NCBI RefSeq assembly: GCF_000190595.1
Contig: NC_015167.1
Coordinates: forward strand, 1,849,501-1,913,500
Reading direction: 5' to 3'
Length of the DNA stretch: 64,000 nt
DNA from: Cellulophaga lytica DSM 7489
GTDB taxonomy: Bacteria; Bacteroidota; Bacteroidia; Flavobacteriales; Flavobacteriaceae
Part shown: positions 1,426 through 49,863 of the stretch, one piece after another
Layout: every line of letters starts with the position of its first letter
How positions within the stretch are numbered: the stretch's first letter is position 1
The notes under the pieces: model-generated
The model's input: only the letters and a program-made list of their open reading frames with translations
Told to the model about the DNA's origin: nothing
The model's database searches: none
Program-made: the position numbers and the translations under genes

Positions 1426-3882
1426 TTATTTAGCTTCTAAAGCTTGGTCTATTTTAGCAATAGCATCTTCATAATGGTAGCGTGTAACAGTATTAATACT
1501 TCCATTTTTTGCTACTTTTAATTTAGAGCGTAAGGTTTTTAATTCTCCTCTAACTAAAGAGCTTACATCAGATGTGGTAACATTAAAACTAGATCTGCTG
1601 CTATTTTTTGCATTTAATAATGTTCCCATACGTTCTAAATATGTACGTTGTAAGTTTCTACGGTAAATATCTGCGCTTTTACCAATGTAAGCTTCTTTCC
1701 ATATGCCTTTACGTAAGTCAGACAACATTTCTAAAGCGCTGTAGTATGTTTTGTTTGTGGTTTCTGCATCTAGCAGCCTACCAATGCGGTCTGCGCTTAA
1801 AACACCATTTAAATGTCTTGCTTGTACTTTACGTAAATTTTCTGGGTAGCCAGCATAATCTATGTTTTGTAAAATGGCATTATCTACTAACCATGATTGG
1901 GTGCTAAACACATTGTCTTGTAACCATTTCATAGACTCTTTTTGCTTAGTTTTGCTTAAAGGTGTATACACGGGACCATTTTGTTTTGGTGTTTTTAAGT
2001 TTTCAAAAACACCACCAATATTGGTTACTACATGGCCTGCGTATCTACTATAAACACCTAATAATTCTCCGTATAATTCTTCTAAATCATCATAGTTATT
2101 TGTTTGGTCAGATGTCCAATTACTAAGGTTTTTTGCTACATATTTAAGGTTTTTTACTCCGTATGAGCTTGCTTTAACTGGATCATCTCCTAATCCTTCA
2201 GTTTGTGATTGAGGATCAAAACGGCTAGACTGTCTTCCAAATTTATAAATAGGATTGTCTGCTTTTTCTAAGATCCATTTACTTAAAGTAGGTACTTCTG
2301 CTTCAGGAGAATTAGCCGCTAAATAACGATAACCCCAGTTTGTAACATAATGGTCATAAGGTCCCATTTGTCTAATAAATCTAATGTTTTTATCTCCTGG
2401 TTGCGCAATATAATTGTAGCGAGCATAATCCATTATACTAGCAGCAATACCATTTTTTTGAGTAAATTCTCCATTACGTAAAGAGTCTACAGGATAAGCA
2501 TAACTTGCAGCCATATTGTGAGGGTAACCTAATGCATGGCCAACCTCATGTGCTATAACCATACGCATCATATCTCCTATTTCTTTAGGTTTGGTGTTAA
2601 GTGTTCTTGCATTAGGGTTAGCAGCACCAGTTTCTAATAAATACCTGTTTCTGTAACTACGTAAATGGTTGTGGTACCAAATAATATCACTCTCAATAAT
2701 TTCTCCGCTTCTTGGGTCAGATACACTTGGGCCAACTGCATTTCTTGTTGTGCTAGCAACATAGCGTATCATAGAATATCTAATGTCTTCAGGGCTAAAT
2801 TCTGGGTCTTCTTCTGGTGTAGGAGCGTCTCGTGCAATTATTGCATTTTTAAAACCAGCAGTTTCAAATGGTTTTTGCCAGTCTTCAATACCTTGTTTAA
2901 TGTATTCTTTTAAATTTTCAGGTGTACCAGGATCTAAGTAGTAAACAATTGGTTTTATAGGCTCTACCAATTCTCCTCTTGCATATGCTTCAGGGTCTTT
3001 TGGTTCTAACCTCCAACGTCTAATGTATGTTTTTTTATCTGCTTTTAGCTCGTCACTACCAAAATCATACTGACTAACAGTAAAAAAGCCAACCCTTGGG
3101 TCAAAAATACGTGGTTGCATTGGTTGCTCTGGTAACAAAATCATAGACTGATTTATTTGTAAGCTAATAGATTCTGTTGCTCTAAGTGTAGATGGTTCTG
3201 ATGCATTAAAAGTAAAGTCTTGTTTTACTTCTATGTTTTCAGGAAAACTTTTAACACTGTTTATAAAACTACGTTTTGGATCTAATCTTTTTACTTTGTA
3301 TGTTTTTCTTAATCTGCTAGATAGTCCGCTAATTGCAGGTACATCTGTGTTAAATAATGCAGTTACGTCTACAACAACACTTGTAGAGTCTGTGTTAAAA
3401 GCTTCTATGTCAAAAGCAAATAGGGTAGGCTCATAGTTGTTAACTTTTACAGATGCACTTATTGCTTTGCTGCTATCTGCAACATTATCATAAGATTTTG
3501 CTTTAAGTAAAATTTTGTCTTGAAAACGAACCCAATGTACTAATTGCTCATTGGTTTTAGAGCCGGCATTCATATATCCGCCGCCAAGTCCGGTAGGTAT
3601 TTTAGCTATTCTAGTAACCCAAAGCATATCTTTGTTTAGCTTGCTAAAAGGTATTTCGTATAAATACTTTTTATCAACCTTATGCACTGTAAAGAGACCA
3701 TTGTCAGTAACGGCATCTTTTGTTACAACCTGACTGTAATTTTTAATGTCTCCTTTTTTTTGTTTTTGAGCAGGAGCTGTTTGTTCTGTTTTCCCTTTTT
3801 TAGATTTTTTTTTCTTTTGGGCAGTTGTGCTAGCAGCAGAAAATAACGATGCTGCTATGCAAAATAAGAGTATTTTTTTCAT
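1426..3882 (-). CDS. Secreted zinc-dependent metalloprotease (DUF5117/DUF4953 type)
   Basis: This 818-residue protein has a signal peptide (about residues 1-21, cut after TTAQ) followed by a lysine-rich linker. The N-terminal half is beta-rich and matches the DUF5118/DUF5117 pair of Bacteroidota metalloproteases. The catalytic region carries the extended zinc motif HEVGHALGYPH at residues 445-455: H445, H449 and H455 as ligands and E446 as general base, as in the metzincin group. A helical C-terminal domain completes the usual DUF4953 layout, and the length is typical for the family. It should act in the periplasm or at the cell surface as an endopeptidase; its natural substrate is unknown. 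It is a single-gene unit, divergent from the lipoprotein gene at 4048. Confidence 0.88.
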   Translation of the reverse strand: MKKILLFCIAASLFSAASTTAQKKKKSKKGKTEQTAPAQKQKKGDIKNYSQVVTKDAVTDNGLFTVHKVDKKYLYEIPFSKLNKDMLWVTRIAKIPTGLGGGYMNAGSKTNEQLVHWVRFQDKILLKAKSYDNVADSSKAISASVKVNNYEPTLFAFDIEAFNTDSTSVVVDVTALFNTDVPAISGLSSRLRKTYKVKRLDPKRSFINSVKSFPENIEVKQDFTFNASEPSTLRATESISLQINQSMILLPEQPMQPRIFDPRVGFFTVSQYDFGSDELKADKKTYIRRWRLEPKDPEAYARGELVEPIKPIVYYLDPGTPENLKEYIKQGIEDWQKPFETAGFKNAIIARDAPTPEEDPEFSPEDIRYSMIRYVASTTRNAVGPSVSDPRSGEIIESDIIWYHNHLRSYRNRYLLETGAANPNARTLNTKPKEIGDMMRMVIAHEVGHALGYPHNMAASYAYPVDSLRNGEFTQKNGIAASIMDYARYNYIAQPGDKNIRFIRQMGPYDHYVTNWGYRYLAANSPEAEVPTLSKWILEKADNPIYKFGRQSSRFDPQSQTEGLGDDPVKASSYGVKNLKYVAKNLSNWTSDQTNNYDDLEELYGELLGVYSRYAGHVVTNIGGVFENLKTPKQNGPVYTPLSKTKQKESMKWLQDNVFSTQSWLVDNAILQNIDYAGYPENLRKVQARHLNGVLSADRIGRLLDAETTNKTYYSALEMLSDLRKGIWKEAYIGKSADIYRRNLQRTYLERMGTLLNAKNSSRSSFNVTTSDVSSLVRGELKTLRSKLKVAKNGSINTVTRYHYEDAIAKIDQALEAK

Positions 3883-3980
3883 TAGTGGTTTGTTAGGGCT
3901 ACAATATAATAAATGTAGAATTGTATGTTTGTTAGTGAAAAGTTAATATAATAATAGATTGTTCATAACAATTATAAATA

Positions 3981-4017
3981 ATCACGGTATGCCGTGATAG
4001 TTAACATAATAACTTTG
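3981..4017 (+). promoter_or_regulatory. Palindromic operator candidate plus -7 box
   Basis: An 18-bp near-perfect palindrome, ATCACGGTATGCCGTGAT (3981-3998, one mismatched pair), stands out as GC-rich in an AT-rich spacer. It lies just upstream of TAACTTTG (4010-4017), a perfect Bacteroidota -7 element, and fills the place where a -33 TTG would be. No TTG is present there. This suggests an activator or repressor site for the lipoprotein gene at 4048. Confidence 0.6.
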
Positions 4018-4047
4018 TTTATTTTTGCACCACATTAAAAATAAGAA

Positions 4048-5073
4048 ATGAAAAACTACCTTGTACATACCTGTTTAATTGCTTTTGTATTTGTAAGTTG
4101 CAAAAACATAAAGCAAGAAAAGGATGACAAGGGTATGGAAACGGTAACTAGTTCTTTAGAACCGTTTTCTTCTGATGAAAAAAAACTTGTAGTTAGCACT
4201 ATTAAAGACGCATATAACTCTACAGAATTTGTGGTGAAATACAATAACTACATAGAGTTTTTTAATACTTATGATGATAAAGTACGTAAATCTTACGCTA
4301 ATTACTTAAGTTGGGTTAACCAAAAAGAGACTAGCGGAACTACAAATTTAAAAAGTAAAATTGGTTTACCTTTAGAAGAGTTAAACATTTTAAAATCTAC
4401 CATAGTTCATAGTCCTGCTATAAAAAAGGTAGATGCCAATATGCTTTTGGTGTACAAAACTGCAGAAATTTTATACAATACTATTTTAGAAGTAGATGCG
4501 TATTATAAAAAAGGAATTGTAGAGTCTGTAGATGTTAATAAAACTAAAAAGCTTCACATAAAATTGCTAGAAGCTTACCGTAATTACTTTTCTACTTTTG
4601 ATGATATGTCTATTGTTTTTTACAGGTTGCAAGACGATGTTGAAAAGTATAAAAAAGAGAAGTATAAAGAGCAAGAGTTGGTAGTGCAATACAATTTATT
4701 TACTGCTATAAATGCTACAGAGGCTATTTTAAATGAAATTGGAGGTAGAGATGTAGACGGACTTTTAACTTTAGATTTTACGGTAATTAACCAAAAAATA
4801 AAAGAGCTTAGAGCGGCATATGTTGCATTAGAAGGATTGAAGGAAAACCAAGATTTAATAGTAAAAGAATTTGGTAAGCCTATGCCAGTTGTTACTAATT
4901 TTACCAACCATTTAGGAAACATTTTAATGGGGTTAACTAGTTTAAAATTGCGAATTGCTAATAATGATTTTGATTATGGTAAAGATCATCCAAACATTGC
5001 TGCAGACGGTTCTCCTTTAAAACTAGAGCTAGAATTTATAGCTATGGTAAACGAATACAGAAGTATAAATTAA
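4048..5073 (+). CDS. DUF3829 (YiiG-like) lipoprotein
   Basis: This 341-residue protein has a lipoprotein signal peptide with a lipobox ending at C18 (FVFVSC). The rest is almost entirely helical and charged (for example YAKKG-type repeats of K, E and Y), with a length and helical pattern that fit the DUF3829/YiiG family of envelope lipoproteins. No catalytic motif is seen and the function is unknown. The gene has its own promoter with a palindrome (3981-4017). It converges on nadD with only 4 bases between the stop codons and no visible terminator. Confidence 0.65.
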   Translation: MKNYLVHTCLIAFVFVSCKNIKQEKDDKGMETVTSSLEPFSSDEKKLVVSTIKDAYNSTEFVVKYNNYIEFFNTYDDKVRKSYANYLSWVNQKETSGTTNLKSKIGLPLEELNILKSTIVHSPAIKKVDANMLLVYKTAEILYNTILEVDAYYKKGIVESVDVNKTKKLHIKLLEAYRNYFSTFDDMSIVFYRLQDDVEKYKKEKYKEQELVVQYNLFTAINATEAILNEIGGRDVDGLLTLDFTVINQKIKELRAAYVALEGLKENQDLIVKEFGKPMPVVTNFTNHLGNILMGLTSLKLRIANNDFDYGKDHPNIAADGSPLKLELEFIAMVNEYRSIN

Positions 5074-5077
5074 GTAT

Positions 5078-5665
5078 TTATCTGTAAAAATTCATCTCAT
5101 CCATATACTTAAAAACAGCGGTAGGTAATAAAGGCGTAATGTTTTTACCTAATTTGTGATTTTTACGAATAAACGTAGATGAGATTTCCATTATAGGAGC
5201 ATCTGTTACCATTTTTATTTTAGGGTTATTTTTAAATTGATGGTCTATTGTGCCAGAAGAAACCCTAGGGTACACATAAATATTGTGGTTTTCTAAAATA
5301 ACCTCGTAGTTTTTCCACTTATGAAGACTTTTTAGGTTGTCTTCTCCCATTATTAATGAAAAATCGTAACCATTTGGGTACTTCTCTAGTAAATGAGCTA
5401 AAGTATGTACCGTATAATTGGGTTGTGGTAAATTAAACTCTATGTTAGATGGTTTTAGTTTAGGGTATTCTTCTGTAGCCTCTAAAACCATTTGGTACCT
5501 GTGGTGATTGCTTAATAAAGATTGTTTTGTTTTAAACGGACTCTGAGGTGTTATTACAAACCAAACTTCGTCTAAATCTGTAAATTCTACTAAGTGGTTT
5601 GCTATAACTAAGTGTCCTAAATGTATTGGGTTAAAGGTTCCAAAATACAACCCTACTTTCTTCAT
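5078..5665 (-). CDS. nadD: Nicotinate-nucleotide adenylyltransferase NadD
   Basis: NadD transfers AMP from ATP to nicotinate mononucleotide to give deamido-NAD in the cytoplasm, a core step of NAD synthesis. The 195-residue protein shows the nucleotidyltransferase signature GTFNPIHLGH (residues 9-18, with H15 and H18 of the HxGH motif) and the second signature SSTFIR at residues 162-167. Length is normal. It is the last gene of the operon yicC-gmk-nadD, starting 1 base after the gmk stop codon. It bears on the separate NAD module at 46.7-49.9 kb, because bacterial NadD enzymes usually prefer nicotinate mononucleotide over NMN. Confidence 0.96.
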   Translation of the reverse strand: MKKVGLYFGTFNPIHLGHLVIANHLVEFTDLDEVWFVITPQSPFKTKQSLLSNHHRYQMVLEATEEYPKLKPSNIEFNLPQPNYTVHTLAHLLEKYPNGYDFSLIMGEDNLKSLHKWKNYEVILENHNIYVYPRVSSGTIDHQFKNNPKIKMVTDAPIMEISSTFIRKNHKLGKNITPLLPTAVFKYMDEMNFYR

Positions 5666-5666
5666 T

Positions 5667-6260
5667 TTACGCTTCTTTTTCTGGGTTTGGTTTGCTTATA
5701 AAATCTTCAACCAGTTTTTCTGCTTCAGCTAAAGCAGTGTCTAAATCGTAATTTTTAATAACGGTATCAAATTGTGGAGCGGTAGCTAATTCTACAGATG
5801 CTTTTGCTATACGCATATTAATTTTATCGTCGCTTTCTGTGCTACGCTTTTTTAACCTAATCTTAAGCTCGTCTATGCTAGGTGGCTTTACAAAAACTGC
5901 CAGTGTTTGTTCTGGAAATTTCTTTTTTATACGCAATCCTCCAACAACATCTATGTCAAAAATAACGTTTTTGCCTTCAGCCCATAAACGTTCTACTTCT
6001 GTTTTTAGTGTTCCGTAAAAGTTATCTCTGTAAACCTCTTCCCATTCTAAAAAATCATCGTTTTTTATATGGTTTTTAAATTCAGATAATGATAAAAAAT
6101 AGTAGTGTTCGCCATTTTTTTCTTTTCCTCTTTTAGGTCTAGATGTTGCAGATACTGAAAATGCTAGGTTTAAGTGTTTTTTACCTAATAAATGTCTAAC
6201 TATAGTTGTTTTGCCACTACCAGATGGTGCTGAAAATATGATAAGTTTGCCGCCTTTCAT
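5667..6260 (-). CDS. gmk: Guanylate kinase
   Basis: Guanylate kinase phosphorylates GMP to GDP with ATP in the cytoplasm. The 197-residue sequence has the P-loop SAPSGSGKTT at residues 10-19 and the GMP-binding region with SATSRPKRGKEKNGEHYYF. The later segment with FDIDVVGGLRIKK is also typical of the family. Length is standard. The start overlaps the yicC stop by one base (TAATG), which supports translational coupling within yicC-gmk-nadD. Confidence 0.96.
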   Translation of the reverse strand: MKGGKLIIFSAPSGSGKTTIVRHLLGKKHLNLAFSVSATSRPKRGKEKNGEHYYFLSLSEFKNHIKNDDFLEWEEVYRDNFYGTLKTEVERLWAEGKNVIFDIDVVGGLRIKKKFPEQTLAVFVKPPSIDELKIRLKKRSTESDDKINMRIAKASVELATAPQFDTVIKNYDLDTALAEAEKLVEDFISKPNPEKEA

Positions 6261-7117
6261 TATAAAACATTTAGCATTTGTTCTTTAATTTTTTCAAGCT
6301 CGTCTTTCATTTGCACTACCAACTGTTGCATTGGCGCATAATTAGCTTTAGAGCCAATGGTGTTAATTTCTCTACCAATTTCCTGAGATATAAAACCTAA
6401 TTTTTTTCCGTTAGAGTCGGCAGAGTTTATTGTAGTTGTAAAGTAAGATAAGTGGTTTGCTAAACGAACTTTTTCTTCTGTAATGTCATATTTCTCCAAA
6501 TAGTAAATAAGTTCTTGTTCAAACCTATTTTCGTCTATATCAGTCTTTAGGTCAGATACAGCTTTTTCTAAACGTTCTCGTAATGCAGTTTGCCTGTCTG
6601 GATCTATAGCAATTACTTGTTGTAGCAAGCTTTCTAATGAAGTAATACGTTGTTTAAAGTCTTGTTCTAAAACAGCGCCTTCTTCAGTTCTAAATACGTT
6701 AATTTCTTTTAAGGCTTCTACAAGTGTATTTTGTATTGCTTTGTACTCTTCAGCGTCAATCTCTTCACGCTCTGTTTTCATAGCATCTGGTAAACGTAAA
6801 GCCATTTCTAAAAGCTTAACATCATCACCTTCTGCTATGTTTTTTAATTGTTGCATGTACTGCTTAACAATTGCTTCATTTATTTGTGATGAAGTATCTG
6901 CTCCAGTACTTTCAATATAAAGATTAAAGTCTATTTTACCTCTTTGTAAGCCATTAGCAATAGTTTTGCGTAACTCCAATTCTTTCTCTCTGTATGCAGA
7001 TGGCATACGTGCATTTAAATCTAAACTTTTGCTGTTTAAAGACTTAATTTCAATAGTAATTTTTTTTGATGGAAGTTGCACTACGTGTTTTCCAAATCCG
7101 GTCATGGACTGAATCAT
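6260..7117 (-). CDS. yicC: YicC family endoribonuclease-like protein
   Basis: This 285-residue protein begins MIQSMTGFGK, the hallmark N-terminus of the YicC/YloC family. It ends with the conserved C-terminal block containing NTIGSKANYAPMQQLVVQMK. E. coli YicC has been described as an RNA-cleaving stress protein; the exact role here is not shown by the sequence. Its place directly upstream of gmk is conserved in many bacteria. It is the first gene of the operon, so the promoter should lie within 7118-7245. Confidence 0.93.
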   Translation of the reverse strand: MIQSMTGFGKHVVQLPSKKITIEIKSLNSKSLDLNARMPSAYREKELELRKTIANGLQRGKIDFNLYIESTGADTSSQINEAIVKQYMQQLKNIAEGDDVKLLEMALRLPDAMKTEREEIDAEEYKAIQNTLVEALKEINVFRTEEGAVLEQDFKQRITSLESLLQQVIAIDPDRQTALRERLEKAVSDLKTDIDENRFEQELIYYLEKYDITEEKVRLANHLSYFTTTINSADSNGKKLGFISQEIGREINTIGSKANYAPMQQLVVQMKDELEKIKEQMLNVL

Positions 7118-7245
7118 ATATTGTAAATTTTATGCAAATATAATTAAACTATACTAGTTGAGGCTACCAGTCTATTCTAATAACGCTATTTCACTAGTTT
7201 GAAAACAAATGATAGGATAAATACTTTAATTTTCTGATTAAAGTA

Positions 7246-7280
7246 AAAAATTCTGCCTAGTTGTAATAGACAGAATTTTT
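7246..7280 (-). terminator. Rho-independent terminator of the DUF1080 operon
   Basis: The 10-bp stem AAAAATTCTG/CAGAATTTTT (7246-7255 with 7271-7280) has an inner CTA/TAG extension. On the - strand it ends in a T run just after the stop of the gene at 7301. Confidence 0.8.
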
Positions 7281-7300
7281 CTGGTTTTAAAGAAGTGTTA

Positions 7301-8110
7301 TTAGAGTTCTCTTACCCAAATATTTCTATAGCTAACCCTGCTGTTGTCTCCGTGATCTTGCAATCTTAAAGGGGCTTTACCGTGAGCTTCGTTTTTAGGC
7401 CATCCAATGTAAGGTGTTGTGCCTTTAATTTCTACATGGTCTAAAACTAGAATTCCGTTGTGTAAAAGTGTTAGTGTCCCAGATTTTATTTTTTTACCAG
7501 CTTTATTAAATTCTGGTGCGTGGTACACAACATCATAAGTGTTCCACTCTCCAGTAGGTACAGATGCTTTTGCAAGCGGAATATGTTGTTTGTATATTGA
7601 GCCAACTTGTCCGTTTACATAAGTATCATTATTGTTGTTATCTAGTACTTGTATTTCATACCTATCTTGAAGAAACACACCGCTATTTGCACGGTTTTGT
7701 CCATCTCTTAAAATTTCTTTAGGAGACCTCCATTCTATATGCAGTTGTATACTGCCAAATTCCTTTTTTGTTTTAATGTCTCCAGATTTATCTTTTACTG
7801 TAAAAAAACCATCTTCTTCATTAACATCCCAAGGGGCTGGTTTGCCATCTGTGCCAACCCATTGGTCTAAGTTATTACCGTTAAATAATACAATAGCATC
7901 ACTAGGAGCGGCATTATTTTTTGCAGGTGTAACTGTTGCTGGTACTGGTTTGTATAATTCTGTTTCTTCAGGTTTTGTAGGTTCTGTGCCACTGTATTCC
8001 TCGTGGATTATGTAATCTACTTCAGATTTGGTTTCAGGGGTTTCTACTGTTGCTTTCTCTTGGCAGCTAATAATTAGAAGCCCTAAAAGAGACCAGATAA
8101 TTTTTTTCAT
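7301..8110 (-). CDS. DUF1080 lipoprotein, probable 3-keto-disaccharide hydrolase
   Basis: This 269-residue lipoprotein has a lipobox cysteine at residue 16 (LIISC). A linker of about 60 residues precedes a concanavalin-like DUF1080 domain containing LFNGNNLDQW, NSGVFLQDRYEIQVLDN, GEWNTYDVVYHAPEF and LRLQDHGDNSRVSYRNIW. In Pfam this family is now described as 3-keto-disaccharide hydrolase; members act on glycosides oxidised at C3. It sits 2 bases downstream of a second DUF1080 gene (8113-8871) and in the same operon as an isomerase/epimerase (8896-9948). The lipid anchor places it in the periplasm or on the outer membrane. Activity on a specific sugar is inference. Confidence 0.88.
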   Translation of the reverse strand: MKKIIWSLLGLLIISCQEKATVETPETKSEVDYIIHEEYSGTEPTKPEETELYKPVPATVTPAKNNAAPSDAIVLFNGNNLDQWVGTDGKPAPWDVNEEDGFFTVKDKSGDIKTKKEFGSIQLHIEWRSPKEILRDGQNRANSGVFLQDRYEIQVLDNNNNDTYVNGQVGSIYKQHIPLAKASVPTGEWNTYDVVYHAPEFNKAGKKIKSGTLTLLHNGILVLDHVEIKGTTPYIGWPKNEAHGKAPLRLQDHGDNSRVSYRNIWVREL

Positions 8111-45955: not shown

Positions 45956-46693
45956 TTACATTTTTAAATAAAAATCTTTAGTTAGATTAATGTAATCTTC
46001 GGTGTATACGTGTCTATCGTTCTCTATAACAAGCTCTTCTGTTTTTATGTTGGTGCAAGGTGTTTTTTGAAACTCTAACAGACTACGTTTAACCTCTGCT
46101 TTTACATTGCCTTTAACTCTGGTAATTTTTAGCGGGTATAGTTTAAAATTTTCTGCTAGTTTGATGAATTCTTCTTCTTCTTTATATGGTATTATGGTAG
46201 CAAATCTTCCGTTTGTAGTTAATAATTTGGCCACGCCACTTACCAACTCACTAAAAGGTAAGGATGTGTTTTGGCGTGCATTATCTCTTGCTTTATTACC
46301 ACTAGTAACTTCTTCTGCGTAAAAAGGAGGGTTAGATACAATTAAATCATACAACTCATCTTCTTCTGTTTCATCTGTAGCGTATTCATCTACAAACTCA
46401 TCAAAACCAGCGTGAAAACAAAATAGTCTATCTGCCCAGTCCGATGCTTCAAAGTTATTTGTGCACTGCTCATAGGCATCAGCATCTAATTCTATAGCTT
46501 CTATATTGTCTGCAGCACTACGCTGTGCTAACATTAACGCTATTATTCCTGTACCAGCACCAATATCTAAAATTGAATACGGATTGTGGTCTACAGATGC
46601 CCAAGCGCCTAATAAAACTCCGTCTGTACCAATTTTCATAGCACAACGGTCTTGGTTTATTGTAAACTGTTTAAAAATAAAAGGTTTGCTCAT
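45956..46693 (-). CDS. trmN6: tRNA1(Val) (adenine(37)-N6)-methyltransferase
   Basis: This 245-residue enzyme methylates A37 of tRNA1(Val) using S-adenosylmethionine. The AdoMet motif is DIGAGTG (residues 43-49) and the catalytic NPPF motif is at residues 121-124 (LIVSNPPFYAEE). The start MSKPFIFKQFTINQDRCAMKIGTDGVLLG is characteristic of the YfiC/TrmN6 family. It is bounded upstream by a strong hairpin (46715-46744) that isolates it from the NAD module. Confidence 0.92.
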   Translation of the reverse strand: MSKPFIFKQFTINQDRCAMKIGTDGVLLGAWASVDHNPYSILDIGAGTGIIALMLAQRSAADNIEAIELDADAYEQCTNNFEASDWADRLFCFHAGFDEFVDEYATDETEEDELYDLIVSNPPFYAEEVTSGNKARDNARQNTSLPFSELVSGVAKLLTTNGRFATIIPYKEEEEFIKLAENFKLYPLKITRVKGNVKAEVKRSLLEFQKTPCTNIKTEELVIENDRHVYTEDYINLTKDFYLKM

Positions 46694-48241: not shown

Positions 48242-49084
48242 TTATTGTAGTATGGTAGCAAGTGGTATTTGTTTAACCTTTGGTTGTTCTTCAATTGAGT
48301 TAAAAGAATCTGTAGTAAAAATGCCACTGTAATAACTGCTTAAGCTCTCTAACCCTTTACTAAATATACCGTGACTAACAGCTAGGTATAAGTTGCCAGC
48401 ATTTTTATTTTTTAATTCTTGAGCTAAACCATTAAAAGTTCCACCACCATCGCAAATATCATCTACAACCAAACAATCTTTGCCTTGTAAATCATCTGCG
48501 TACACTTTAAAGCCAGATAACTTGCCGGTTTTAACATCTCTAGTTTTGGAGCATTCTATTACTTCTTTACCTCCTAGATATTCGGCTACTTTATAAATTT
48601 TTTTAAGCGCACCTCCGTCTGGAGATATTAATAAAACATTGTTATTTAAGGTTGATATAACCTTTTGTATAAAAGTGTAATTTGTAATTGTAGTGCAATT
48701 GTGTAATAGAGCAGGGGTAACCTCAGAATGTGGGTCATAAACAATAACTTCATTTAATTGAAGATTATTCATTAATTCTGCATACACTTTTACAGATAAT
48801 GATTCTCCTGGAGCCATTAGCCTATCTTGCCTAGCAGCCGGAAAATATGGTATAAAAGCATTAATTGTTTTTACGCCCATACGTTTTAAGGCGTCTATAG
48901 TAAGTAGCAATAAGCCAACATCATTAAAGGACTGCAGTCTGTGTGTTACTGTTATAGTATCTGAGGTATTAAAATTGTTTTCAATTTTAATGTGAGGTTC
49001 ACCACCAGAAAATAAAAACGATTTAAATTCGATGCTTTTCTGATTTGGGAACGGGTTAAACTGTGGATCTAAATTTAATATCAT
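48242..49084 (-). CDS. Divergent ribose-phosphate pyrophosphokinase-like protein
   Basis: This 280-residue protein is about 30 residues shorter than housekeeping Prs. It keeps the ATP-site motif ARQDRL (84-89), a KxR pair (K180, R182) and the PRPP loop VVDDICDGGGT (206-216). The usual QIQGFF stretch after the DLHA/DPHS histidine is absent and replaced by EVTPALL (residues 121-127). It should make a pyrophosphorylated sugar phosphate for the adjacent NAMPT-like enzyme. The substrate could be ribose-5-phosphate (giving PRPP) or ADP-ribose. It lies under two NrtR-type operators, within a separate NAD operon. Confidence 0.88.
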   Translation of the reverse strand: MILNLDPQFNPFPNQKSIEFKSFLFSGGEPHIKIENNFNTSDTITVTHRLQSFNDVGLLLLTIDALKRMGVKTINAFIPYFPAARQDRLMAPGESLSVKVYAELMNNLQLNEVIVYDPHSEVTPALLHNCTTITNYTFIQKVISTLNNNVLLISPDGGALKKIYKVAEYLGGKEVIECSKTRDVKTGKLSGFKVYADDLQGKDCLVVDDICDGGGTFNGLAQELKNKNAGNLYLAVSHGIFSKGLESLSSYYSGIFTTDSFNSIEEQPKVKQIPLATILQ

Positions 49085-49104
49085 TTGCGTTATTTTTACA
49101 CAAA
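49084..49104 (-). promoter_or_regulatory. NrtR-type operator, site 1, over the promoter of the prs-like gene
   Basis: A 21-bp inverted repeat has arms TTTGCGT and ACACAAA around a 7-base centre. It covers the -7 box and reaches the start codon of the gene at 48242. It is one of three copies of the same element in the NAD module. Confidence 0.82.
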
Positions 49105-49129
49105 GTTAATCGAGAAAATGAATTAACAA
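49101..49129 (-). promoter_or_regulatory. Promoter of the prs-like/nadV operon
   Basis: On the - strand, TTG (49129-49127), an 18-base spacer and TAACTTTG (49108-49101) match the Bacteroidota promoter pattern exactly. Operator site 1 overlaps the -7 box, and site 2 lies 7 bases upstream of the -33 TTG. Confidence 0.8.
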
Positions 49130-49135
49130 AAATTA

Positions 49136-49156
49136 TTTGTGTTAAATTTACGCAAA
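49136..49156 (-). promoter_or_regulatory. NrtR-type operator, site 2
   Basis: A 21-bp inverted repeat has arms TTTGTGT and ACGCAAA around a 7-base centre. It overlaps the last codons and stop of nrtR (stop at 49148-49150) and lies just upstream of the prs-like promoter. Confidence 0.82.
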
Positions 49157-49840
49157 CTTAATTTCAAAGTGCATTCCATTTTTCTCTAAAGCTTTGTATT
49201 TGTTGGGGTCAAAGGTATATAGCTGTGCTGGTCTACCGCTGCCATTTTTTTGTTTTTCGTTGCATTTTTTTATAAAACCAAAGCTTAAAATCTTTTTTCT
49301 AAAGTTTCTTCGGTCTATTTCTTGTTCTAAAATAGTTGCATACAAATGCTCTAAATCCGAAAAAGGAAACTTTTTAGGAAGCAAATCAAAGCCAATAGGT
49401 TGGTAGTGTAGTTTTGCTTTTATTCTTTTAAAAGCAGTATCTATTATTAAATTATGGTCAAACGGTAGTTTTGGTATGTTATTAATGTTTTGCCACTTTA
49501 CGTCTTGTGCATCTGTAGCGGCAGATAGTTTTAAATTATCTGGATTTACCAAGGCAAAATAGGAAACAGATATTACTTGGTTTCTCTTATCTCGCTCAAC
49601 GTCATCACCAAAAGTATACAGTTGCTCTAGGTAGTTAATGTTTATGCCTGCTTCTTCTTGTAATTCTCTGTGTACGGCATTAGTTAATGTTTCTCCATTA
49701 TGTACTAAGCCGCCAGGTAAAACCCACTGATCTTTATAAACACCATACTTTTGTTGTACTAACAATACATAAAGTGCATTGTTATGGTAGCCAAAAACAA
49801 CGGCATCTACTGCTACTTTTATATTCTGATTGTTCTGCAT
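49148..49840 (-). CDS. nrtR: NrtR-type Nudix-related transcriptional regulator of NAD metabolism
   Basis: This 230-residue protein has an N-terminal Nudix domain with an intact Nudix box, GLVHNGE-x7-RELQEEAGI (residues 44-66). A C-terminal winged helix follows (RRNFRKKILSFGFIKKC, then GSGRPAQLYTFD). This domain pair is that of NrtR, a repressor relieved by ADP-ribose and related NAD metabolites. Three matching operators (49084, 49136, 49843) and its place above the prs-like and nadV genes support regulation of NAD salvage plus autoregulation. Many NrtR proteins have a degenerate Nudix box; here it is complete, so residual hydrolase activity is possible. Confidence 0.93.
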   Translation of the reverse strand: MQNNQNIKVAVDAVVFGYHNNALYVLLVQQKYGVYKDQWVLPGGLVHNGETLTNAVHRELQEEAGININYLEQLYTFGDDVERDKRNQVISVSYFALVNPDNLKLSAATDAQDVKWQNINNIPKLPFDHNLIIDTAFKRIKAKLHYQPIGFDLLPKKFPFSDLEHLYATILEQEIDRRNFRKKILSFGFIKKCNEKQKNGSGRPAQLYTFDPNKYKALEKNGMHFEIKFA

Positions 49841-49842
49841 AA

Positions 49843-49863
49843 TATGTGTAGTATATACGCAAA
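49843..49863 (-). promoter_or_regulatory. NrtR-type operator, site 3, upstream of nrtR
   Basis: Read on the - strand, arms TTTGCGT and ACACATA flank a 7-base centre, with one deviation from the other two sites. It sits 3 bases before the nrtR start codon and overlaps TATTTTTG (49867-49860), a -7 box; a TTG lies 16 bases further up at 49886-49884. This fits autorepression. Confidence 0.75.

Follow-up and report, generated by a model that had tools for sequence, protein, structure and literature searches.

The window analysed here is a stretch of 64,000 nucleotides (positions 1,849,501 to 1,913,500 of contig NC_015167.1) from Cellulophaga lytica DSM 7489, the genome of which is a single contig of 3,765,936 bases. 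On the minus strand of this window there lie, in this order, a gene for a regulator of the NrtR family (nrtR, 49840-49148, 230 amino acids), a gene that family models assign to the prs type (49084-48242, 280 amino acids), and a gene that they assign to the nicotinate/nicotinamide phosphoribosyltransferases (48215-46767, 482 amino acids). For reasons given below we refer to the latter two, which are separated by 26 bases, as the adps-like and namat-like genes. Three 21-bp inverted repeats, which we predict to be operators, accompany them. Operator 1 (TTTGCGTTATTTTTACACAAA, 49084-49104) is promoter-proximal and overlaps the adps start codon by a single base; operator 2 (TTTGTGTTAAATTTACGCAAA, 49136-49156) is distal, lying 52 bp upstream of operator 1 and overlapping the last codons of nrtR; operator 3 (TATGTGTAGTATATACGCAAA, 49843-49863), the presumed autoregulatory site, is found directly upstream of nrtR.

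Operators 1 and 2 match the pattern TTTGYGTN7ACRCAAA exactly and operator 3 matches it with one mismatch, just as a first-pass annotation of this DNA had described. That annotation had also taken the repeats for operators of NrtR, a proposal that is supported in three ways: they are unique in the genome, they occur together with NrtR in relatives, and they hold a fixed position with respect to promoters. In the genome as a whole there are two exact matches, both at this locus (operators 1 and 2), an outcome in favour of operators when random recurrence is the test. Forty first-order Markov simulations, each of 64 kb, gave no exact match, 0.075 one-mismatch matches per 64 kb, and 1.4 two-mismatch matches per 64 kb. 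Ten one-mismatch matches occur genome-wide, operator 3 among them; of the other nine, seven are inside predicted open reading frames and two are intergenic (L003 and L010). There is no enrichment at the two-mismatch level across the whole genome (124 matches in all versus 146 for a reversed control pattern), and degenerate copies therefore mean nothing. Against a matrix of 80 sites from relatives, among which those of the window were counted, the three operators scored 27.7, 27.9, and 22.0 bits. Of the other nine one-mismatch matches none exceeded 16.2 bits, and the best two-mismatch match reached 14.5 bits among the 27 scored of 112 (100 of the 124 matches being listed). A wider regulon in this genome was considered and set aside, the two intergenic one-mismatch matches scoring 16.2 and 9.3 bits. 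Nor do the housekeeping prs gene or nadE carry a site with 0-1 mismatch (other genes for the synthesis of nicotinamide adenine dinucleotide (NAD) were not searched for), and the claim that the regulon is a "complete" one for NAD is not upheld. Two transcription units, nrtR and adps-namat, make up the regulon in this genome.

The same 299 genomes of the family were searched for the NrtR protein and for the exact motif, with a threshold for NrtR of at least 50% identity that was chosen after the match list showed a gap between 51% and 42%. The exact motif was present in 25 of the 26 genomes with NrtR and in 10 of the 273 others (Fisher test, 2.6e-27), so that the sites track NrtR-bearing genomes and are conserved in relatives as an operator ought to be; the remaining NrtR-bearing genome, G234, has one-mismatch sites only. 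A hand count of the reversed control pattern gave 37 matches in the 299 genomes, two of them in the 26 that bear NrtR. Within the genus (18 genomes) the exact motif was found in 13/13 genomes with NrtR versus 0/5 without (a single stray match, L158, is inside a reading frame), and in the class (395 genomes) it was found in 26/34 with NrtR (E <= 1e-60) versus 34/361 others; 22 of the 28 class loci inspected have a site with at most two mismatches within 420 bp of nrtR. In ten family genomes the closest protein to NrtR is 39-42% identical, and none of them has the exact motif. The lack of the motif in these relatives and in part of the class argues that the operator code is that of one clade within the NrtR family. 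Six of the exact matches in the ten NrtR-less family genomes were examined, and none is beside nrtR, adps, or namat. In three NrtR-less genomes (G189, G243, and G028) one and the same exact match (TTTGTGTGAAATTTACGCAAA or its complement) lies in a divergent promoter beside a folP-like gene; this is probably a conserved promoter rather than an NrtR site.

The 25 NrtR-bearing family genomes with the exact motif contain 50 distinct exact sites, and all 50 are upstream of neighbourhood genes or of partners that have moved away. Measured from site midpoint to gene start, they stand 10-239 bp ahead of nrtR, adps, or namat, or else of an SPFH gene or a deoxyribosyltransferase-like gene following nrtR. 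The namat genes are particularly informative. There are 24 genomes of the family with namat, all among the 26 with NrtR (G173 and G276 have NrtR and no namat at the threshold used), and in 8 of the 24 (G283, G036, G139, G240, G096, G304, G275, and G050) the namat gene sits on a different contig, at a greater distance, or beyond a gap. (Note that the assembly of G096, one of the eight, is fragmented, and the distance of namat is not determinable there.) All eight displaced namat genes have an exact site 32-249 bp upstream; four of them show the pair, once more at a spacing of 52 bp, and in two of these four the distal site has two mismatches. In a further three genomes (G194, G067, and G307) namat directly follows nrtR, and all three have the pair. 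The other 13 namat genes follow another gene within ~50 bp and have no site with at most two mismatches in the 420 bp upstream. That namat keeps a site when it moves is the strongest computational indication that the sites act on these genes.

The repeats also occupy a regular place relative to promoters, and here too the first-pass annotation was accurate: it had put site 1 over the -7 box of the prs-like operon (in a TTG-N18 layout), site 2 just above the -33 element, and site 3 over the -7 box of nrtR. TTG/TANNTTTG is the promoter consensus of Bacteroidota. In the window the predicted adps-namat promoter (49129-49105, minus strand) comprises TTG at 49129-49127, 18 bases, and TAAC at 49108-49105, after which the first four bases of operator 1, TTTG, end the -7 box TAACTTTG; a sigma-70 scan gave no match at this promoter. 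Similarly, TATT at 49867-49864 is followed by the TTTG of operator 3. We collapsed 43 orthologous loci to 29 representatives, 24 of which have a pair of sites after nrtR. (The five left out have no adjacent site (L087 and L092), one site in reach (L039 and L089), or a 27-bp pair (L040).) The start-to-start distance was 50-56 bp in 24/24, with 52 bp in 14, 54 bp in four, 53 bp in three, and 50, 51, and 56 bp in one each. TA-N2 precedes the proximal site in 22/24 and TTG is found 17-20 bases further up in 21/24, as compared with 8% each at random positions; for the distal site the corresponding counts are 9/24 and 0/24, for the site before nrtR 19/22 and 3/22, and for ten sites before moved targets 9/10 and 8/10. 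The regularity with which TA-N2 precedes the proximal site argues that the opening TTTG of the operator completes the -7 element TANNTTTG; the promoter of nrtR apparently works with no TTG at -33. Conservation of coding sequence was considered as the cause of site 2 and rejected because in a second subgroup the site is not within nrtR, the distal site there beginning 16-36 bp past the nrtR stop codon. On the genome-wide counts and the co-occurrence with NrtR we rejected chance palindromes, and the three repeats are almost certainly operators linked to this NrtR.

That the regulator has the NrtR architecture, a Nudix domain followed by a winged helix, is borne out by its domain matches (PF00293, 65.5 bits; PF21906, 90.3 bits) and by its AlphaFold model (mean predicted local distance difference test score of 88.4), the best fold matches of which are AraR of Bacteroides and NrtR of Shewanella. 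The narrow equivalog model for ADP-ribose-responsive repressors, NF050029, gave 133.1 bits against a cut-off of 400, and our assignment is accordingly to the wider NrtR family. The AlphaFold model superimposes on the ADP-ribose-bound Nudix domain 3gz8 at 1.8 Å over 138 columns with 36% identity, a point in favour of ADP-ribose as the effector. In the window the Nudix box is intact (GX5EX7REUXEEXGU); its core GX5EX7REUXEE is present in 43/43 orthologues, and the full box in 34/43. PMC4666351 describes regulators of the NrtR and AraR types as having an impaired box, and an intact one suggests that the regulator may still hydrolyse its ligand. Residues Arg180, Asn181, and Lys184 of AraR, which touch DNA (PMC4666351), align with Arg178, Asn179, and Lys182 here, in line with the GTGT...ACAC core and 7-bp centre that our sites share with those of AraR. 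Impairment of the Nudix box and nearby arabinose genes, the marks of AraR, are absent, the neighbours being the adps-like and namat-like genes. Given that ADP-ribose lifts the NrtR proteins of Shewanella and Synechocystis off DNA (PMC4666351), it is probably, by analogy, the inducer of this switch as well. (Note that the genome encodes a second NrtR-family protein, of 38% identity (L066, G000:C1:3301296-3302003), with no site of at most two mismatches within 1.5 kb; it is perhaps a sugar regulator of the AraR/XylR type.)

We consider the two enzymes to be probably mislabelled. The first-pass annotation had spoken of an NAD module; in the sense of prs plus an ordinary NAMPT this is not supported, as the proteins look like Adps and Namat of the NARP1 pathway. 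As described in PMC12774641, the Namat of phage SPbetaL1 joins ADP-ribose pyrophosphate to nicotinamide, yielding NAD+, and the Namat signature consists of GSX-Phi-X-Phi-X-Phi-TRD, with aromatic residues at positions 3 and 7, plus Arg, Lys, or Tyr in a clamp loop. The namat-like protein carries this signature (GSFTYQYNTRD, with Arg35 aligned with Arg40 of SPbetaL1 Namat), is 59% identical to SPbetaL1 Namat, and has 9w5x and 9w5w as its best sequence matches in the PDB. Moreover, GS[FY]TYQ[FY]NTRD is present in 24/24 namat genes of the family (that of G068 has it in the second part of a disrupted reading frame). The genome has a dedicated adps-like gene besides the housekeeping prs, and the product of the former is 32% identical to SPbetaL1 Adps over 257 amino acids versus 25% to the housekeeping Prs. 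Its PHSEVTPAL resembles PHSDVTPAL of Adps, where the housekeeping Prs has LHADQIQGF; its phosphate loop reads VDDICDGGGTF versus VDDMVDTAGTL in that Prs (an argument of our own); and it matches PHROG 619 at 271 bits as compared with 144.4 bits for TIGR01251. An adps gene adjoining namat is itself a mark of NARP1, albeit a weaker one than the Namat signature, as no published signature for Adps was found. The Namat signature, the 59% identity, and a Prs-like protein that is closer to Adps argue that the operon is most likely NARP1, and on these sequence grounds we regard it with some confidence as a chromosomal version of that pathway, producing NAD+ from ADP-ribose and nicotinamide. (PADLOC matches were weak and partial, namely PDC-S07 at 41.9 bits for NrtR, PsyrT at 16.5 bits for the prs-like protein, and none for the third protein, and were not used.)

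The surroundings of the module differ between genomes. A terminator-like hairpin of 12 pairs (46744-46715, minus strand), which is a consensus match from a search that found one such hairpin versus 1.7 expected in shuffles, lies between the namat-like gene and the next gene and is the likely end of the adps-namat operon. That next gene (45956-46693) has a counterpart directly after rimM in three other genomes of the genus (15, 64, and 183 bp away in G017, G006, and G013, respectively) and 750 bp after rimM in G015; in the remaining eight it is not found within 1.5 kb. (The names rimM, rpsP, and trmN6 for neighbours in the window are ones that we presume.) Six Cellulophaga genomes have rimM followed by nrtR-adps. 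The closest named relative among the matches is Cellulophaga omnivescoria (NrtR 93% identical). Since the gene at 45956-46693 adjoins rimM in other genomes of the genus, the nrtR-adps-namat module looks like a cassette inserted between core genes. In seven members of the genus, G013 among them, an nrtR of 52-56% identity is carried elsewhere.

We looked for Pfam families in 20 chosen proteins from eight loci of relatives; five of the proteins had no match. Between or beside adps and namat there are genes for an ADP-ribosylglycohydrolase (PF03747), KptA/Tpt1 (PF01885), a macro domain (PF01661), and NADAR (PF08719); other genes in these positions encode Sir2 (PF02146), microbial PARG (PF10021), SLOG (PF18306), a calcineurin-like phosphatase (PF00149), DUF4291, and SPFH proteins. 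One locus (L165, G276:C6:33000-41000, at 1584-7399) has, all on the same strand, nrtR, an exact operator pair, an SPFH gene, a gene for a 308-amino-acid protein, a class II Argonaute (pAgo_II, 771.6 bits), and an Argonaute-associated Sir2 (Aga_SIR2, 447.5 bits), an arrangement that could be read as an ADP-ribose-type switch upstream of a defence pair of the NADase type.

Other loci with NrtR relatives differ in their enzymes. In a 636-kb genome of an uncultured phage (LR756504.1, 6001-10677) there are genes for an NrtR (51% identity), a NadM-like protein, and a Nampt-like protein (33%), with two two-mismatch sites 42 bp apart upstream of the NadM-like gene; this is possibly a phage NARP2-type pathway under NrtR. 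A contig labelled "Acinetobacter phage MD-2021a" (CAKLQF020000015.1, 2485-5702), the label of which looks doubtful given its annotated bacterial-type genes, has in a row an adps-like gene (37%), a namat-like gene (57%, GSFTYNYLTRD), and a gene for a Nudix-regulator-like protein (32%), which makes it another lineage in which NARP1 adjoins a relative of NrtR. In four more distant Bacteroidota (L040, L221, L222, and L226) NrtR and sites are near a Nampt-type gene of 37-39% identity, which in L040 has a Nudix-bearing, NadM-like partner; from these loci the NrtR clade may switch both NARP1-like and NARP2-like pairs. Finally, on plasmid p1 of Leptospira interrogans (L267, 4956-6669) a 47% NrtR relative is directly before an annotated nadE.

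Taken together, these observations suggest an NrtR regulon joined to a chromosomal NARP1, and to the reading as a whole, in which NrtR operators control the NARP1 operon and are opened by ADP-ribose, we give a probability of roughly 0.68. Two NrtR dimers on operators 1 and 2, which are about five helical turns apart, would flank the -33 element and block the adps-namat promoter, and a dimer on operator 3 would cover the -7 box of nrtR. Upon cleavage of NAD+ by NADases or ADP-ribosyltransferases, ADP-ribose and nicotinamide would accumulate; binding of ADP-ribose would cause NrtR to leave the DNA, and adps-namat would be switched on by substrate induction. NAD+ would then be regained from ADP-ribose in two steps, with Adps making ADP-ribose pyrophosphate from ADP-ribose and ATP, and Namat joining the pyrophosphate to nicotinamide. 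Because ADP-ribose is both the substrate of the pathway and the presumed ligand of NrtR, the switch would open when NAD+ is cleaved.

Several observations weigh against this reading. With respect to the operators, 8 of the 34 NrtR-bearing genomes of the class are without the exact motif (in five of the eight the NrtR is less than 50% identical), in some of the 26 that do have it the motif lies apart from nrtR, as in G674, where it is in a repeat, and 3 of the 43 orthologous loci (L087, L092, and L094) have no site with at most two mismatches beside nrtR, although the genomes concerned do have an exact site at namat. With respect to the enzymes, TIGR01251 (ribose-phosphate diphosphokinase) matches the adps-like protein above its cut-off of 113 bits, and NF006629 (nicotinate phosphoribosyltransferase) matches the namat-like protein at 624.8 bits, above its cut-off of 405. 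The identity to Adps is only 32%; among 39 relatives (pieces included) with at least 50% identity to the prs-like protein, 26 match.HS.VTP and 37 match GGGTF in the phosphate loop; and in the second subgroup (G194, G027, G067, G307, and G068) the Prs-like partner is shorter, is 31-38% identical, and matches none of the motif patterns. Namat itself also makes nicotinamide mononucleotide (NMN) from phosphoribosyl pyrophosphate (PRPP) in vitro (PMC12774641, available text). With respect to the ligand, the closest solved structure is that of AraR, which binds arabinose, and homology thus gives no verdict on what is bound.

One alternative concerns the ligand. NrtR might bind these sites and respond to something else (NAD+, ADP-ribose pyrophosphate, a pentose, or cyclic ADP-ribose), or it might be a dual protein that hydrolyses its own inducer. 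Conservation of the Nudix box in the orthologues, as against the impaired box of the characterised regulators, fits this possibility, and so does the diversity of ligands in the family, with NAD reported for NdnR and arabinose for AraR (PMC4666351, in the part available). The ADP-ribosylglycohydrolase, macro, NADAR, PARG, KptA/Tpt1, and Sir2 genes of relatives nevertheless point to ADP-ribose or a derivative, and we consider this alternative somewhat unlikely.

Alternatively, the operators could be those of NrtR and the operon one of ordinary nicotinamide salvage, composed of a second PRPP synthase and an NMN-making NAMPT. The two family models that score above their cut-offs would be explained in this way, and SPbetaL1 Namat is reported to keep about half of the PRPP activity of human NAMPT (PMC12774641, available text). 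The namat-like protein nonetheless has the clamp signature and Arg35, whereas the sole full-length NrtR-linked Nampt-type gene in the loci examined (L221, 37%) is without the signature (those of L040, L222, and L226 end before it), and the prs-like protein departs from the cell's own Prs in its phosphate loop while having PHS[DE]VTPAL in common with Adps. We judge ordinary salvage to be unlikely.

A third possibility is that NrtR acts at site 2 as an activator of adps-namat while repressing its own gene. Site 2 is suitably placed for an activator, just above the -33 element and at a near-fixed distance from site 1; a protein on site 1, which covers the -7 box in 22/24 representatives, should however block RNA polymerase, and activation is very doubtful. 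That the repeats belong to another regulator, or are chance palindromes beside conserved coding sequence, as the overlap of site 2 with the last nrtR codons and the common folP-side match of three NrtR-less genomes might suggest, is scarcely credible when the second subgroup has its distal site past the stop codon, sites precede namat even where it has moved, and the motif tracks the NrtR clade and not the 39-42% relatives.

The reading that we favour, ADP-ribose-responsive control of a chromosomal NARP1, can be set beside several known systems. The NrtR proteins of Shewanella oneidensis and Synechocystis (PDB 3gz5, 3gz6, and 3gz8) have the same Nudix and winged-helix fold and are operator-based repressors of NAD genes with ADP-ribose as the presumed effector (PMC4666351, available text); here, in contrast, the Nudix box is intact and the target genes seem to encode NARP1 instead of classical NAD synthesis. 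AraR of Bacteroides thetaiotaomicron (BT0354; PDB 5bs6 and 5ddg), the closest in sequence and fold among solved structures, likewise uses tandem 21-bp operators with a GTGT...ACAC core around 7 bp; the AraR sites quoted in PMC4666351 have AAA rather than TTT in the outer arm and are 3 or 42 nt apart rather than 31 nt (52 bp start to start), and the AraR system has arabinose as its ligand and arabinose genes as its targets. The NARP1 operons of phage SPbetaL1 and Paenibacillus foliorum resemble ours in their adps-namat order and Prs-like partner (PMC12774641, available text), and the selectivity-clamp residues of SPbetaL1 Namat are kept here; unlike them, the operon of C. lytica is chromosomal and has its own nrtR gene and predicted operators, and the main text of PMC12774641 contains neither "NrtR" nor "Nudix". 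In the conflict systems centred on ADP-ribosylglycohydrolase, a Nudix-HTH (helix-turn-helix) repressor is proposed to sense ADP-ribose before ADP-ribose-processing genes, as in the relatives studied here; section 3.8 of PMC9503650, where they are described for actinobacteria, planctomycetes, and proteobacteria, names no operators or NARP1 enzymes. Our literature search found no paper that joins NrtR with NARP1, Adps, or Namat; Rodionov 2008, which may list NrtR sites of Flavobacteriaceae, was outside that search.

Bacterial NARP1 works in vitro and in Escherichia coli, where the Paenibacillus pair was expressed along with a Sir2 NADase, and its cellular role is left open in PMC12774641. The mapped operators and the conserved promoter layout, together with a regulator family that reads ADP-ribose, make that role testable. 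Were ADP-ribose to induce the operon, NARP1 would be a repair response to NAD+ cleavage. The operator code can be used to seek ADP-ribose-responsive genes across Bacteroidota, and the corrected annotation matters in its own right, as the label of nicotinamide phosphoribosyltransferase plus PRPP synthase hides such operons. More tentatively, and with somewhat less than even confidence, we propose an NAD-recovery regulon of Bacteroidota that would give bacterial NARP1 its physiological role, in which a clade of NrtR proteins with an intact Nudix box senses, and may clear, ADP-ribose arising from NADase immunity or ADP-ribosylating toxins, and switches on NARP1, the erasers of ADP-ribosylation (macro, ADP-ribosylglycohydrolase, NADAR, PARG, and KptA/Tpt1) and, in a single genome, a gene run that closes with an Argonaute-Sir2 pair.

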